This document shows, piece by piece, positions 1 to 35,426 of a DNA stretch of 36,255 bases. Origin of the DNA: a virus; the IMG/VR virus record IMGVR_UViG_3300029908_000083, positions 1 to 36,255 of that record, one strand, 5' to 3'. The position numbers and the translations under genes were made by a program. How positions within the stretch are numbered: the first letter of the stretch is position 1; each line of letters begins with the position of its first letter. The notes under the pieces are model-generated. The model was given only the letters and a program-made list of their open reading frames with translations, was not told the DNA's origin and did no database searches.

Positions 1-253
1 TGTCCGGTGTTTCTGCCCGCCGTAACGTGTCGCCTTTATGCCCCTTTTGTCCGCCACTGGCTTTGCCGGACTTGCCGCGCAAACTTCCAGCGATCCTCGG
101 CTTCTTCCCCAACCCGTCACTCGATGGTGGTTTGCTGCTGGTGTTGCTGTCCAAGCCAAGACGGCGCTCAAGTTCCGCAATACGCTGCCGTAGCAGCGCA
201 TTCTCGGCCTTCAAGGTATCAATAATCGCTTGTGCTTCGGGGGATAGTTCCAT
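1..253 (-). CDS. tnpC: IS66 family transposase, N-terminal fragment (cut by window edge)
   Basis: Reading leftward from the ATG at 253 gives 84 residues, open to the window edge. The start MELSPEAQAIIDTLKAE leads into a leucine-rich coiled coil (LRQRIAELERRLGLDS) and then SSKPPSSDGLGKKP and a GGQKGHKGDTLRR stretch. This is the usual N-terminus of IS66-type TnpC: leucine zipper followed by the KPPSSDG and zinc-binding region. The catalytic DDE domain would lie outside the window. I could not find tnpA, tnpB or a clear GTAA-type terminal repeat between 254 and 472, so the element may be the single-gene type or already damaged. Its presence at the edge may mean the phage region was interrupted by an IS, or that the assembly stopped there. 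Confidence 0.85.
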   Translation of the reverse strand, partial: MELSPEAQAIIDTLKAENALLRQRIAELERRLGLDSNTSSKPPSSDGLGKKPRIAGSLRGKSGKASGGQKGHKGDTLRRAETPD

Positions 254-472
254 CCACACGTTGACTCATATTCACGCCGTCGCCGCCACAAAAATCTTCA
301 TCCCGCCCCAAAATCGCGCAACTTTGTTGCTTTTTTGCAAAAATCACCTTGGGAGACACGTAAAAGTTAGATATTGAGGCTTGACGAATCCGCCATTAGA
401 CCAGATTCCCCATTCTCTTTTTCTTGCGTCCATTTTATCCCCCTTAGTTAGTGCTGTCTTATCAAGCGGCAG

Positions 473-2186: not shown

Positions 2187-2218
2187 TGTTTTTCCCTGTG
2201 TTTGTTCTTACAGTGATT

Positions 2219-2247
2219 AATCTAATGATTTTCCTAATACCATGCAA
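2219..2247 (-). promoter_or_regulatory. Possible sigma70-like promoter of the leftward operon
   Basis: On the minus strand there is TTGCAT (2247-2242), a 17-base spacer, then TAGATT (2224-2219). Four of six bases match each consensus hexamer (TTGACA and TATAAT). It lies just over 30 bases upstream of the ATG at 2186, in the right place to drive the four-gene operon. Judged by eye only, in an AT-rich region where chance matches are common. Confidence 0.3.
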
Positions 2248-2317
2248 GGGGAATTATTAGGGGATAACTTTTTTTCTGTCTATCTGTCTAAAATGTGACA
2301 TTTTTACAATAACCAAG

Positions 2318-2494
2318 TTATGCACCTGATTTTACATTATATATATGCTCTATCTCGCGCGCCTGTTTACATGCTGTTTTCACAAGGCTTGCTTGGCCGT
2401 TATGTTCATATCTCATGCGCTTGATAGGCCGTGTATCTCTCTGCCGTTTATTGTGTCGTGCCGTGTGTCGTGTGTCGTGCTGTGTTGTGCCCAT
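2318..2494 (-). CDS. Doubtful small basic protein (58 aa)
   Basis: An ATG at 2494 is preceded by GGTGGATAAC, an acceptable ribosome-binding site. The product starts MGTTQHDTRHTARHNKRQRD and is rich in His, Arg and Lys, which would suit nucleic-acid binding. The composition of the first part follows directly from the GTGTCGT-type DNA repeats, which makes chance more likely. It lies upstream of, and on the same strand as, the leftward operon. I list it only as a possibility; no family recognised. Confidence 0.22.
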   Translation of the reverse strand: MGTTQHDTRHTARHNKRQRDTRPIKRMRYEHNGQASLVKTACKQAREIEHIYNVKSGA

Positions 2495-2547
2495 GTTATC
2501 CACCAAATTATTATTGATACATTGTAACAGTATATCCGTACTCTATC

Positions 2548-2629
2548 TGTTCTTATTCTGTTCTTATTTGTTCTTTTGAGTGATATATCCCTTGTAAAAT
2601 TCATCAAATAGATATCCTATTTGTTCTTA
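2548..2629 (+). repeat. TGTTCTTA direct repeats, three in helical phase
   Basis: TGTTCTTA occurs at 2548-2555, 2559-2566 and 2622-2629, with TGTTCTTT at 2569-2576. The first three units start 11 and 10 bases apart, so they would lie on one face of the helix. A further copy lies outside the cluster at 2203-2210, next to the leftward operon. The pattern suggests binding sites of one protein placed before the IHF cluster. Function unknown. Confidence 0.5.
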
Positions 2630-2762
2630 ACTCATTGATATATATAGACTATTAAAATAGTTCTTTACTTATTTTATTTGTTTGTAAGTCATTGATATAT
2701 AACAATCTTTACTCTTATTAACTCATGTGAAAAGCTCACTATTTCCCTCTAAGTCATTGATA
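2628..2762 (+). promoter_or_regulatory. Three perfect IHF consensus sites before cos
   Basis: The IHF consensus WATCAANNNNTTR reads YAANNNNTTGATW on the other strand. TAACTCATTGATA (2628-2640), TAAGTCATTGATA (2685-2697) and TAAGTCATTGATA (2750-2762) each match it fully and have the same orientation. All three are followed by TATATA runs, on the side where IHF sites carry their A/T-rich element. Starts are 57 and 65 bases apart and the last site ends 14 bases before cosQ. Beyond the consensus the units share a TCATTGATATATA 13-mer, so they are also true repeats. The link to IHF is from the known consensus, not from an experiment. Confidence 0.65.
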
Positions 2763-2776
2763 TATATAATAAAAAT

Positions 2777-2823
2777 GGGTCCTTCCTTCGATCCCCACGA
2801 GACGCGGGTCTTTCGCGCCCGCG
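2777..2823 (+). other. cos: Putative cos site (cosQ and cosN) of lambda type
   Basis: GGGTCCT at 2777-2783 is identical to lambda cosQ, and the following CTT/GATCC spacing resembles the lambda sequence. In lambda the top-strand nick lies 30 bases after the start of cosQ. Here that point falls at 2806/2807, inside a GC-rich dyad with arms CGCGGG (2803-2808) and CCCGCG (2818-2823), as expected for a cosN with two symmetric nicks. After the dyad comes an AT-rich stretch resembling lambda's. It has the same order and orientation relative to the terminase genes as in lambda. The overhang length cannot be fixed by eye; the dyad centre at 2813 would fit 11 to 13 bases. Confidence 0.7.
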
Positions 2824-2875
2824 AGATTCCTGAGCGCCATATATTTTTATTTCGAGGACAAAACGTTAACCTTTC

Positions 2876-2949
2876 TGCCTATTTTTTAGGCAAATGGTTA
2901 ATTTTTCTCAATTGGGGTTTTTCTGTGTCATTGCCTATTTTTTAGGCAA
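2876..2949 (+). repeat. Two copies of a TGCCTA-T5-TAGGCA hairpin after cosN
   Basis: TGCCTATTTTTTAGGCA occurs at 2876-2892 and again within 2931-2949, where the stem is extended by one pair on each side (TTGCCTA/TAGGCAA with a loop of Ts). The copies start about 56 bases apart in the AT-rich stretch between cosN and the downstream IHF site. They could be binding dyads or cruciform-forming hairpins at the chromosome end. Neither has the downstream T-run of a classic terminator. Confidence 0.6.
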
Positions 2950-2974
2950 TAGCCACAATTCAGCCATAAATAGC

Positions 2975-2987
2975 TAAGTCTTTGATA
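2975..2987 (+). promoter_or_regulatory. IHF consensus site between cosN and the GTTGAC array
   Basis: TAAGTCTTTGATA fits YAANNNNTTGATW at every position and is followed by AATAAG. It is a diverged copy of the three upstream units. Its place, after cosN and just before the first GTTGAC element at 3001, parallels the IHF site I1 in lambda cosB, where IHF bends DNA so that terminase small subunits can bind neighbouring R sites. Confidence 0.55.
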
Positions 2988-2999
2988 AATAAGAAAACC

Positions 3000-3404
3000 A
3001 CGTTGACATAGCATAAAAAACACGTGTTTCTAAAAAATACTTTCGTAAACGATTACAGCTCTGTACCACTAGTTTCTTCTGGTGGATAAGTAAGAAACGT
3101 TCGTAACTATTTGAAATATAAGAAAAGTACGTTGACATGTTTCGTTGTGTCAACGTAAAGGTCAACGTGAGTTAAGTATATGATTTATTTGATGAAAGTA
3201 TTTTTTGTCTACATATTGTTGACCTTATAAGGATAAAAATATGTAACACAGTGAATAATCACAAACATGGGGGGTGCTAAGTGAGAGTCGTATTAGGGGT
3301 TTATGGAGAATACCCTGTTTTGTCAACAATATGTAGACAATATGATTATAGTGTTGTAAGTAAAGGAAAATTCACGTTGACCTAGTGAGTTTTTCTACGT
3401 TGAC
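3000..3404 (+). repeat. Array of ACGTTGAC/GTTGAC elements, candidate cosB terminase sites
   Basis: ACGTTGAC occurs at 3000-3007, 3129-3136, 3374-3381 and 3397-3404 on the + strand and, inverted, at 3149-3156 and 3161-3168. Two further GTTGAC cores lie in the 19-bp inverted repeat (3218-3223 and 3322-3327). The copies extend to ACGTTGACATRG or ACGTTGACCTAGT. The array sits between cosN with its IHF site and the terminase genes, which is the position of the R1-R3 sites in lambda cosB. The likely ligand is the terminase small subunit at 4364-4894, whose N-terminus looks like a winged helix-turn-helix. Alternatives: operators for the IS5-like protein or a repressor. GTTGAC also resembles a -35 element, so some copies may lie in late promoters. 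Confidence 0.55.
3205..3340. repeat. Perfect 19-bp inverted repeat enclosing 98 bp
   Basis: TTGTCTACATATTGTTGAC at 3205-3223 is repeated in inverse at 3322-3340 without a mismatch. The enclosed 98 bases contain no gene. The arms face as terminal inverted repeats would, so the unit could be a tiny MITE-like element, but I see no convincing target duplication next to it. Each arm also carries a GTTGAC core, so the pair may simply be two strong protein sites able to form a loop. Related TAGACA/TGTCTA arms occur at 3429-3448. Confidence 0.65.
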
Positions 3405-3477
3405 CTAGTTTGCTAGTGGAACAAAATGTAGACAGAAAGTTTTGTCTAAAAAAAAATGTCTGCCCTCGGAGGAAATA

Positions 3478-3735: not shown

Positions 3736-4367
3736 GCGACACAGAGTTCAGTATAAAATCAAACGTCGATGAGTTTGCAAAAGTAATCGACGATTTCGGA
3801 AGAAAACAACTGCCTTATGCGGTCTCGCTGACAATCAATAAATTAGCGAAGGCTGTAGTAGCTGGAGAGGTCGAGGGGATTGCTGAAACTTTTCCTACGG
3901 CAACACCCTTCACGAAGGGTGGCGTATCCTTTATTCCGTCCAACAAAAATATATTGGAAGCTGTGGTGTTTGTAAAAGACATTCAGGCTGAGTATTTGGA
4001 GCCGTATGAATTTGGTGGAAATGAAATTCCTGCCGGACCCTCTCATACAGCGATGCTAAGACCTATAGGAATAAAAACGAACCAATACGGAAACATTCCA
4101 TACCAGCGTGTTAAAAACTTGAAGGCACAACCCAATGTTTTTTCCGGGGAAGTTAAATTAAAAAACGGAACTAGGATTGGTGGAGTGTTTCAGCGACTTA
4201 AGGGTAAGGGTGGAGGTCCAAGATTAAAAATTCTGGTGCGTTTCGCCGATCCACATGCGGTTCATGAAGAACTGCATTATTTTGATCGAGCAAGAAAAAT
4301 TGTGGAGAGTAATTTTCTTGAACTTATGAATGAATCAATGGCACGCGCTTTAGAGACTGCAAAATGA
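3732..4367 (+). CDS. Phage protein, possible minor tail/neck-type protein (211 aa)
   Basis: Starts at the ATG overlapping the previous stop (ATGA). The N-terminal segment FGRKQLPYAVSLTINKLAKAVVAGEVEGIAETFP, followed by a PFTKGGVSFIPSNK stretch and a DIQAEYLEPYEFGG segment, resembles a common group of phage proteins, sometimes annotated as minor tail or gp10-like, that begin with a helix containing A-L-N-x-T/L-A. The C-terminus is helical. Its place ahead of the terminase genes is unusual for a tail or neck component, so the role is open. No membrane segment and no catalytic motif are visible. Confidence 0.6.
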   Translation: MSDTEFSIKSNVDEFAKVIDDFGRKQLPYAVSLTINKLAKAVVAGEVEGIAETFPTATPFTKGGVSFIPSNKNILEAVVFVKDIQAEYLEPYEFGGNEIPAGPSHTAMLRPIGIKTNQYGNIPYQRVKNLKAQPNVFSGEVKLKNGTRIGGVFQRLKGKGGGPRLKILVRFADPHAVHEELHYFDRARKIVESNFLELMNESMARALETAK

Positions 4368-4894
4368 CCATAGAAAATCTTTTGCAGACTGCAAAACATT
4401 TTAATGTTGACCGGAAAACTATACGGTCAACAATCGCAAAATATAAAAACTTTCCGTGCAGGAAAAATCCTGATAACGGCCGAACGGAATTTGACTGGAA
4501 AAAAATAAGTGATTGGATTGATGAAGGCAACGATTGGTGGAGAGGCGAGCGAGTTCAACCTGACAAAGAGGATTTGCCAGACAACATAAAAAGACTCCGT
4601 AAGGAAATAAACTCAAAAGATAGCAAGAGTGCTGTCCAGACAAAGTTGTTGCAGCTTGAATATGACAAAAAGCGTGGCGTCCTTGTGGAGCGTGAGGAAA
4701 TTATATCGCGCATGATCATCCTGATATCGCGCGTTGCGAAACAGATGGAAATGATGCCAAATTTGATCGGAAAAAAAATGGGACTTCCGAACGAAACCAT
4801 AGAGCTTTTCCGCCTTCACATGGATCAGGCGCGCGAGGCTTTGGTAAACGACTCTGAGACTGCATTCTCTAAGGATGAAATGGCTGGTGTATAA
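4364..4894 (+). CDS. Terminase small subunit, Nu1-like (176 aa)
   Basis: The N-terminus (NLLQTAKHFNVDRKTIRSTIAKYKNFPCRKNP..., with FDWKKISDWID after it) fits the winged helix-turn-helix of Nu1-type DNA-packaging proteins, which selects cosB sites. A charged linker and a helical C-terminal half (LQLEYDKKRGVLVEREEIISRM, then AKQMEMMPNLIGKKMGLP) follow, as in the terminase small subunit family, where this part contacts the large subunit. It overlaps the previous gene by ATGA and the large subunit gene by one base. The GTTGAC array upstream of the operon is its most likely target. Confidence 0.85.
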   Translation: MTIENLLQTAKHFNVDRKTIRSTIAKYKNFPCRKNPDNGRTEFDWKKISDWIDEGNDWWRGERVQPDKEDLPDNIKRLRKEINSKDSKSAVQTKLLQLEYDKKRGVLVEREEIISRMIILISRVAKQMEMMPNLIGKKMGLPNETIELFRLHMDQAREALVNDSETAFSKDEMAGV

Positions 4895-6981
4895 TGTGGG
4901 GAAACGACGAACGTGAGATTTTGGAGTTTTATCGGCCGCGCGAGCGTCTTTCTGTTTCTGAATTTTCTGAAAAATATCGCTGGCTGTTCAACGAAGGCGG
5001 TGGACACGTTGGCAAGTGGGACAACAACATCGTCCCCTATTTGAATGATCCGATGGACGAGCTTGATAATTTTGACGTTCAGACAATTGTTATCGTCGGG
5101 CCGGGACAATCAGGAAAAACTTCCATAGCGGAAAACTGGCTGATGCGCTCGATCAAGGCGAGTCCAGGAAATTTTTTGTGGTATATGCAGACCGACGACA
5201 GTTTGGAGGCGTATGTAAAAAGCCGAATCAATCCAATGATTCAGAACCACACGTTTCTGAAAGAATCTCTTGGTAAAAAACCGACCGACGACAGCTTGCA
5301 TTTTAAGGACTTCCGCACGATGCGGATTGAGCTGTTATCGGCAACATATTCAAACCTGATCAACAAATCAGCCCCGCGCATTGTGGCTGACGAAATCGAT
5401 GCGTATCCCGAAAGCCTTGGCAACATTAAGCCTCTGCTCGATGTGCGCCGTCAAACTTTCGGAAATGAATCAAAGTTACTGATCACAAGCCATCCTGATC
5501 GCGCGCGCGGGATGAATCCTGATCGTGATTGGACTGACGGAGTGATGGGAGTCTACGCCGATTCAGATCGGCGCGTGTGGTACTGGAAATGTCCAAGCTG
5601 CGGCGCGTGGTCGTCGCCGTGTCCTCTAGCTGATCGATTTATGGATTTGTCATATCCTGAAGACGGTTCGCTCGATGAGATACAAGAAAAAGCCGTTTTG
5701 GTTTGCCCGGTCAACGGTTGCGCGATTACTGATGCTGAACGTCTCAAAATGAATGCTGACGGAGGACGGTGGATAGCTACAGGACAATCTATAACGGTCG
5801 AAGGTGTCGTTACAGGCGAGCGCGTTAAACGCGCTATAGCCGGGTTCTGGGTCGTAGGCACTATGTCACCGTTTCTTCTGGGAGGTATTGGTGCGCTCGC
5901 GCGCGCAAAGGTGAAGGCAGAGCGTGAGTTTGAAGTTTCTGGTGAAGAGCAAACATTGAAAGAGGTGATGGTCAAGCAATGTGGGATTCCTTACACGCCT
6001 CCTCGTTCGATGGGAACAGTGACCGCGAATGATCTGGCGGCGCGCTCTGAAGAAAGGTTGGTTTTAAAAACTGTTCCTCAAGGTGTCAGATTTTTGACTG
6101 CTGCATTCGATATTCAGGTGGCGCATTTTGATGTAATGGTGCGCGGTTGGGGGATAGGTGGAGAAAGCTGGATTGTTGATAAGTTTAGAGTCTCTGGTGA
6201 TCCGGCAACAAATCCTAACGACTGGGATGAGATGATAAATTTATTGTTGAAACGTGCATATCCTCTGTCAGAAAATTCAGAAAAGGCGATGCCAATTCGT
6301 GGAATAGGATGGGACTCAGGCGGTCTGCCCGGTGTGACTCGGCAAGCATATGACGCTTGGATGCGCTGGAAAGATAAAGGTCTGGTTCGAAATTACGGAA
6401 TTGTAAATGAGAAAGAGGCTTGGTCGGCGTTACCGATGAAAGGTGCGTCGAGCGTGATGGCAAAAAAACTGACGGTGACTTATCCAGATACTTCAGGAAA
6501 TAAACAACGCGCCGCGTCTAAGGGTGTTGTTCCGGTTGCGATGTTCAACCCAAACCTTTTTAAGGATGAACTGAACGGTCAATTGCAGAAAGGTGATGAG
6601 GGTCCGTGGTATGTTCATTTTCCAAAATCACTGGCCAACCGCGCGCCGCCTCACCCTTGGTTCGAGCAGCTCGTGGCTGAAATTCGAGATGCGCTCGGTA
6701 AGTGGGCAAAAGTTAACAAGGGCGCAAGGAATGAAGCTTTGGATTTGATGGTAATGACCCATGTAATCGCCCATCTTCATGGAGTTTCGCAGATAAAGTG
6801 GGACAAACCGCCGCAATGGGCGGCTCCGTGGGAAACAAATAGTTTTCTGATTCCAGTGGAAAATGTCGCGACTTTGGAGCAGGTTCGAAAAGACTCTGGG
6901 TACAAATCAACTGATTCGGGTGTTAAGATCGTAGTCCAGTCAACCAATAAGAAAAAATCTTTGAGTGATATGCTCCCGTGA
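4894..6981 (+). CDS. Terminase large subunit, GpA family (695 aa)
   Basis: ATPase-nuclease motor of lambda gpA type that cuts cos and translocates DNA into the prohead. The ATPase half has a Walker A, GPGQSGKT (residues 69-76, Lys75), a Walker B, IVADEID (163-169), and a coupling-like LLITSHP motif (195-201). Two cysteine pairs (KCPSCGAW near 232 and VCPVNGCAI near 270) lie in the middle. The nuclease half shows AAFDIQ (Asp406) and GWDSGG (Asp474), the expected acidic residues. The length is normal for gpA (about 640-700 aa). Family membership implies cos-type packaging, in agreement with the cos-like site upstream. Confidence 0.95.
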   Translation: MWGNDEREILEFYRPRERLSVSEFSEKYRWLFNEGGGHVGKWDNNIVPYLNDPMDELDNFDVQTIVIVGPGQSGKTSIAENWLMRSIKASPGNFLWYMQTDDSLEAYVKSRINPMIQNHTFLKESLGKKPTDDSLHFKDFRTMRIELLSATYSNLINKSAPRIVADEIDAYPESLGNIKPLLDVRRQTFGNESKLLITSHPDRARGMNPDRDWTDGVMGVYADSDRRVWYWKCPSCGAWSSPCPLADRFMDLSYPEDGSLDEIQEKAVLVCPVNGCAITDAERLKMNADGGRWIATGQSITVEGVVTGERVKRAIAGFWVVGTMSPFLLGGIGALARAKVKAEREFEVSGEEQTLKEVMVKQCGIPYTPPRSMGTVTANDLAARSEERLVLKTVPQGVRFLTAAFDIQVAHFDVMVRGWGIGGESWIVDKFRVSGDPATNPNDWDEMINLLLKRAYPLSENSEKAMPIRGIGWDSGGLPGVTRQAYDAWMRWKDKGLVRNYGIVNEKEAWSALPMKGASSVMAKKLTVTYPDTSGNKQRAASKGVVPVAMFNPNLFKDELNGQLQKGDEGPWYVHFPKSLANRAPPHPWFEQLVAEIRDALGKWAKVNKGARNEALDLMVMTHVIAHLHGVSQIKWDKPPQWAAPWETNSFLIPVENVATLEQVRKDSGYKSTDSGVKIVVQSTNKKKSLSDMLP

Positions 6982-35074: not shown

Positions 35075-35426
35075 ACTCGCAAAACATGGCATCAAAACGT
35101 TTCGCAATAACGTGGGTGTCGGGTGGATCGGTAAACTCGTTAGAAAAAATCCTGACGGTTCGATTTTACTTGCAAACGCTCGCCCTCTTCACGCAGGACT
35201 TTGCAAAGGGTCCTCTGACCTCATCGGTTATAAATCCGTTATCATTACTCAAGATATGGTCGGTCAGCGTATCGCCATCTTCGCCGCGCCCGAAGCCAAA
35301 TCTACATCCGGCCGTTTAACCGAAGATCAGAAAAATTTCATTCGTGTTGTACAACAGGATGGAGGTATCGCCGGTCACTTCAGGTCTCTTATCGGCGCGC
35401 TAGAACTCTTCGGGATTAAGATTTAA
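35037..35426 (+). CDS. VRR-NUC domain nuclease (129 aa)
   Basis: Single-domain VRR-NUC: VQREAQIELAKHGIKTFRNNVGVGW, then ARPLHAGLCKGSSDLIGYKSV and AIFAAPEAKSTSGRLTEDQKNFI. The GSSDLIG and EAKS elements carry the PD-(D/E)XK residues (Asp and Glu-x-Lys). Family members act in junction resolution or flap cleavage, and short phage forms are common beside replication genes. The 38-base overlap with the methyltransferase gene argues for coupled expression. The last 27 bases overlap the convergent VirE-type gene. Confidence 0.85.
   Translation: MSESNVQREAQIELAKHGIKTFRNNVGVGWIGKLVRKNPDGSILLANARPLHAGLCKGSSDLIGYKSVIITQDMVGQRIAIFAAPEAKSTSGRLTEDQKNFIRVVQQDGGIAGHFRSLIGALELFGIKI

Follow-up and report, generated by a model that had tools for sequence, protein, structure and literature searches.

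The window analyzed here, a 36,255-bp IMG/VR virus record, raises the question of whether a phage with a Mu-like tail packages its DNA from a lambda-type cos site and, if so, where its virion ends lie. An initial annotation had placed such a site at positions 2777 to 2823, a segment of a non-coding region between leftward- and rightward-oriented genes. This segment almost certainly comprises cosQ and cosN of a lambda-type cos site, a reading based on (i) its score against a matrix built from relatives; (ii) its conservation and orientation; (iii) contig ends located at the predicted top-strand nick; and (iv) a 13-nt terminal overlap in a relative. Packaging is of the cos type, as the annotation had proposed, and stands behind a contractile tail module with Mu-type baseplate proteins.

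Sequence and conservation of the cosQ-cosN segment

The segment reads GGGTCCTTCCTTCGATCCCCACGAGACGCG^GGTCTTTCGCGCC^CGCGAG, where the carets represent the proposed top-strand (2806/2807) and bottom-strand (2819/2820) nicks within cosN (Table 1). The heptamer GGGTCCT was found to be identical to that of lambda cosQ, the CGCGGG/CCCGCG dyad was found at the position expected for cosN, and the order and orientation relative to the terminase genes are those of lambda. The GC content is 66.7% at 2777-2836 compared with 24.5% at 2500-2776 and 32.9% at 2840-3477, and the patch is the highest-GC 47-bp stretch within 2200-3477, consistent with its earlier description as a GC-rich island in an AT-rich stretch. 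Two identical copies of TGCCTATTTTTTAGGCAA, each a small palindrome, are located just downstream of cosN (2876-2893 and 2932-2949), and a related sequence, TTGCCTATTATTTAGGCA, is found in L004, an IMG/VR contig of 36,801 bp.

The heptamer occurs five times in the window, always on the plus strand, and is by itself weak evidence, while the whole cosQ plus cosN site is diagnostic at the level of sequence. Further copies were detected at 35208, 35455, and 35827 (plus strand), near the right end and in or beside a VapE-like gene, and none of the three has a cosN-like partner. A matrix of cosQ, 28 to 31 nt, and cosN was built from 28 distinct sites of relatives, with the window and its nearest relative excluded. 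This matrix scored 44.1 bits at position 2777, compared with 3.4 bits for the best site elsewhere in the window and a maximum of 10.8 bits in 30 Markov shuffles. The proposal that a cos site can be identified here is upheld for the full site but not for the heptamer alone. Likewise, the boundaries of 2777-2823 are appropriate for cosQ-cosN but too narrow for the cos region as a whole, in which a conserved core extends to about 2838, the candidate cosB to about 3406, and IHF-like sites begin at 2628.

A terminase alignment was used in two scans, which yielded relatives among both viral contigs and the genomes of bacteria. At 79 of 161 loci, a GGGTCC site differing from GGGTCCTTCC at two positions or fewer was detected on the sense strand upstream of gpA, mostly 650 to 830 bp before the gene; the density of such sites was 112 per Mb there, versus 33 per Mb for the opposite strand and 11 per Mb for downstream sequence. 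An alignment was then made of the 43 alignable relatives nearest in GpA, a set preselected for the cosQ motif. Upstream of a related GpA terminase, and in the orientation of the window, all 43 displayed cosQ, 29 to 31 nt, and a block approximating ACGCG^GG(C/T)NNTKCGCRC(C/G), with relatives keeping the longer cosQ form GGGTCCTTCC (2777-2786 in the window). Other relatives have the element in a lambda-like form. Comparison with phages of GpA-type terminase had been suggested as a check on the annotation, and the segment was found to be conserved. In L004, whose GpA is 83% identical, a 24-nt cosN core (GACGCGGGTCTTTCGCGCCCGCGA) is identical to that of the window, while the flanks align in patches only. 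Outside this set were two further relatives, L062 (72% GpA identity) and L063 (56%), in which no GGGTCC-type cosQ was found in the available sequence although it was well covered; these may possibly use another cos signal or be truncated records.

Table 1. Coordinates of the cos-associated features and neighboring genes in the window.
Feature	Position	Strand	Remarks
IHF-consensus site YAANNNNTTGATW (TAACTCATTGATA)	2628-2640	+	
IHF-consensus site (TAAGTCATTGATA)	2685-2697	+	
IHF-consensus site (TAAGTCATTGATA)	2750-2762	+	Just upstream of cosQ; L004 counterpart, -57 and -56 from nick
cosQ GGGTCCT	2777-2783	+	29-31 nt before cosN in 43/43 aligned relatives; identical heptamer in lambda
cosN dyad CGCGGG-TCTTTCGCG-CCCGCG	2803-2823	.	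Center 2813; CGCGGG 2803-2808, CCCGCG 2818-2823
Predicted 13-nt 5' cohesive end GGTCTTTCGCGCC	2807-2819	+	By homology to G028 terminal repeat
IHF-consensus site (TAAGTCTTTGATA)	2975-2987	+	Between cosN and first cosB-like repeat
Candidate cosB, eight GTTGAC sites	3002-3404	.	Presumed small-terminase binding; 8 vs 0.33 expected
Individual GTTGAC sites	3002, 3131, 3149, 3161, 3218, 3322, 3376, 3399	+, +, -, -, +, -, +, +	
DUF4096 ORF (IS4/5 transposase N-terminal domain), 85 aa	3478-3735	+	Between candidate cosB and terminase genes
Minor tail protein-like gene (phrog_1924), 211 aa	3732-4367	+	Upstream of small terminase
Terminase small subunit, Nu1-like, winged-helix N-terminus	4364-4894	+	Profile and predicted fold
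Terminase large subunit, GpA ATPase and nuclease domains	4894-6981	+	

Repeat arrays and the small terminase subunit

Downstream of cosN, the GTTGAC array begins 195 bp from the nick and ends at about 600 bp; we infer that it is a candidate cosB in which GTTGAC serves as the binding site of the small subunit. Six of the seven GTTGAC sites of L004 agree with those of the window in strand and, to within 3 nt, in distance from the nick. None of 100,000 random placements matched this agreement, which is due in part to common descent, as the sequence immediately around the sites can be aligned in short stretches too. The positions are kept despite divergence of much of the neighboring sequence. The candidate cosB also contains a perfect 19-nt inverted repeat, TTGTCTACATATTGTTGAC (3205-3223) and GTCAACAATATGTAGACAA (3322-3340).

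IHF-consensus sites are likewise concentrated near cos, with four in 2500-3199 (0.11 expected) and five in the whole window. In lambda, cosB spans 120 bp with three R sites and has an IHF site between R3 and R2 (PMC4669245). No IHF-type site was found between the first two GTTGAC repeats of the window, whose sites lie instead at the positions listed in Table 1; as N15 also has no IHF site between R3 and R2 (PMC4669245), this element is not universal in lambda-like phages.

On the evidence of profiles and predicted fold, the terminase of the window is composed of a Nu1-like TerS with a winged-helix DNA-binding domain and a GpA-type TerL. With hhalign, the small-subunit family could be aligned to lambda Nu1 (97.2%), and its profile finds the Nu1 DNA-binding domain (PDB 1j9i, E-value 1.6e-7). 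The predicted fold of the N-terminus resembles the terminase small-subunit domains 7lwr and 7lw0, with weak Foldseek E-values (0.08 to 0.14) and a probability of 1.00.

An alternative is that cosQ and cosN are real while the GTTGAC and IHF-like repeats represent replication-origin iterons or repressor operators. The arrays are iteron-like, they occupy an AT-rich non-coding stretch with a change in GC skew, and the binding of GTTGAC is only predicted. Nonetheless, we consider this assignment unlikely as (i) L004 has kept the layout with respect to cosN; (ii) many relatives have another repeat, CGTTACAC, in 4 to 6 copies at the corresponding place after cosN; and (iii) the small subunit has a DNA-binding domain of the Nu1 type. 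At L121 5283-5400 and comparable loci of Paraburkholderia prophages, the CGTTACAC repeats apparently extend into the start of the small terminase gene, and the N-terminus encoded at such loci displays repeated GVT/VTP motifs, as if binding sites were translated.

Contig ends and overhang length

The initial annotation had predicted a nick 30 bases after the start of cosQ, and contig L001, which is 100% identical to the window, was found to start at exactly that base, 2807. L001, L002, and L003 are contigs of the same virus with six ends in total, and by our own arithmetic the chance that any of these ends coincides with a given position among 36,255 is about 2 in 10,000. The base homologous to 2807 is the first base of six contigs of relatives (L210, L214, L215, L290, L292, and L310), with L290 and L292 near-identical at the cos end and so not fully independent; two more, L065 and L078, start at the corresponding base of lambda-like sites. 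GpA is present on the relatives' contigs that start at the nick. The ends at the top-strand nick look virion-like and indirectly point to fixed virion ends at cosN. Several other records were set aside: the match in L221, which had resembled a near-end match, is internal, and this contig has no GpA; cos of L307 is near the contig end, yet this end is not at the nick; L306 is merely a cut locus; and the ends of G029, G030, and G031 opposite the nick are not cos ends.

The length of the overhang was examined with a relative of 54,543 bp (G028) in which both ends are present. This record starts with GGCACTGCGCGCG and ends with GGGTCCTCCGACCGCCCTTCCGGTCACGGG followed by GGCACTGCGCGCG, with cosQ 30 nt before the repeat; such a 13-bp terminal direct repeat would be expected after end repair of molecules carrying a 13-nt 5' overhang. 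The dyad score for the window and L004 was 0.67 at an overhang length of 13 versus 0.22 at 12, and for the family it was 0.61 at 13 versus 0.36 at 12, with lengths 9, 11, and 15 at 0.53 to 0.55. This one relative and the dyad symmetry suggest that the overhang of the window phage is probably 13 nt instead of the 12 nt of lambda, which would place the bottom-strand nick at 2819/2820; the overlap pattern and homology point to 5' polarity. An overhang of 12 nt (2807-2818), with the bottom-strand nick one base nearer, would follow the precedent of lambda and fits the record of Hafnia phage yong2 (about 12), but the terminal repeat of G028 and a dyad score that peaks at 13 and is low at 12, in both window and family, make this length improbable for the window phage.

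The most general alternatives fare worse. Headful packaging from a pac site, with the cos-like motif as a relic, could be entertained as the window may be an integrated or damaged prophage, given its transposase-like left edge and the sequence of L002 beyond it. This is nonetheless hardly credible for a site and terminase that are both of the cos-cutting GpA/Nu1 type and for a virus of which one contig, L001, ends exactly at the nick. Similarly, the GC-rich dyad, as a palindrome in an AT-rich intergenic region between leftward and rightward genes, might be viewed as a transcription terminator, RNA element, or regulator site of divergent operons, but we give this next to no credence since no intrinsic terminator (stable hairpin and T run) was found at the cos patch by RNA folding or terminator scans, the folding is ordinary (z -0.29), and such a role would explain neither the spacing of cosQ, nor conservation with respect to gpA, nor the contig ends at the nick.

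Contig L002 extends 148 bp (L002 1-148) to the left of the window start, such that the left end of the window is not a phage end. This extension differs from the right end of the window, which rules out a self-closing record. Both the window and L002 read through cos, as is expected for prophage, replicating, or rejoined DNA. By eye, an IS66-type transposase-like fragment is present at the left edge of the window (1-270, minus strand).

Proposed mechanism and comparison with known phages

The features of the lambda-type cos site suggest a packaging scheme in which protein binding, the role of IHF, and direction are inferred. The Nu1/GpA terminase (4364-6981) would be anchored through its small subunit on the GTTGAC repeats, with IHF or a protein like it bending the DNA. 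Nicking of the two cosN strands by GpA would generate the 13-nt 5' overhang. Packaging would proceed rightward through the terminase, head, and tail genes, with gpW, a lambda-family portal, and an S49 protease encoded after the large terminase on the same strand, and would stop once the following cos in the concatemer is reached, a step for which cosQ would be needed.

Shared with lambda are (i) cosQ GGGTCCT and its 30-nt distance to the top-strand nick (measured from the lambda right end); and (ii) the order cosQ-cosN-cosB-terminase (cosB being a candidate in the window), the orientation, and the Nu1-like small and GpA large subunits. Differences include the sequence and probable length of the overhang, the presence of two additional genes separating cos from the small terminase gene, and a candidate cosB of eight short repeats set far from the nick compared with three R sites in about 120 bp of lambda; if this reading of a displaced cosB is true, the loop to be bridged by the enzyme must be longer than that of lambda. 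Prophages of Paraburkholderia, Caballeronia, Variovorax, Azospirillum, and Gluconacetobacter (GpA 48 to 61% identical to the window) have the same cosQ, spacing, type of cosN block, and orientation, but many have the CGTTACAC repeats close to cosN, and their cos is about 0.7 to 0.8 kb from gpA versus 2.1 kb in the window. L004 shares the cosN core, the GTTGAC layout, and a related gene between cos and terminase, and differs in that two IHF-consensus sites, not four, are located near cos.

Nucleotide searches of named phages returned only AT-rich, chance-like matches to the cos segment and no match to a Paraburkholderia cos. Among 50,697 phage records no close relative was found, with the best GpA matches at 31 to 33% identity, and the literature returned nothing relevant on a 13-nt cos or on cosQ in Burkholderia, for which myoviruses without cohesive ends have been described (PMC7266877). 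The clade has no close characterized relative in the collections searched; new are an overhang of probably 13 nt, repeat arrays specific to the clade, and the inserted genes. A broader proposal, which we regard as an even call, is that a large clade of Proteobacteria phages with GpA terminase has a lambda-type cos whose overhang measures 13 nt and whose cosB repeats are clade-specific (GTTGAC here and CGTTACAC in Paraburkholderia and Azospirillum prophages), with cosB of the window lineage displaced and spread over 400 bp and an IHF-type bend array upstream of cosQ.

The virion ends would hereby be fixed for an uncultured phage, and those of a whole clade pointed to. Sequence alone may suffice to annotate cos in GpA phages by this motif, with metagenomic contig ends as a cheap check. 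Furthermore, a conserved cutting signal (cosQ-cosN) would be separated from a fast-changing, family-specific recognition signal (cosB), whose divergence is testable against the DNA-binding domains of the small subunits.

The genes inserted between cosB and terminase are a new point, represented in the window by the DUF4096 ORF and the minor-tail-like gene. The former encodes a DUF4096 transposase domain only and overlaps the next gene by a few bases; no counterpart was seen in L004, and it may derive either from the capture of a transposase N-terminus or from domestication as a DNA-binding protein. In L210, a long gene (508-1911), named from its sequence as ParB-domain DNA methylase-like, is positioned between cos at the contig start and the terminase genes.
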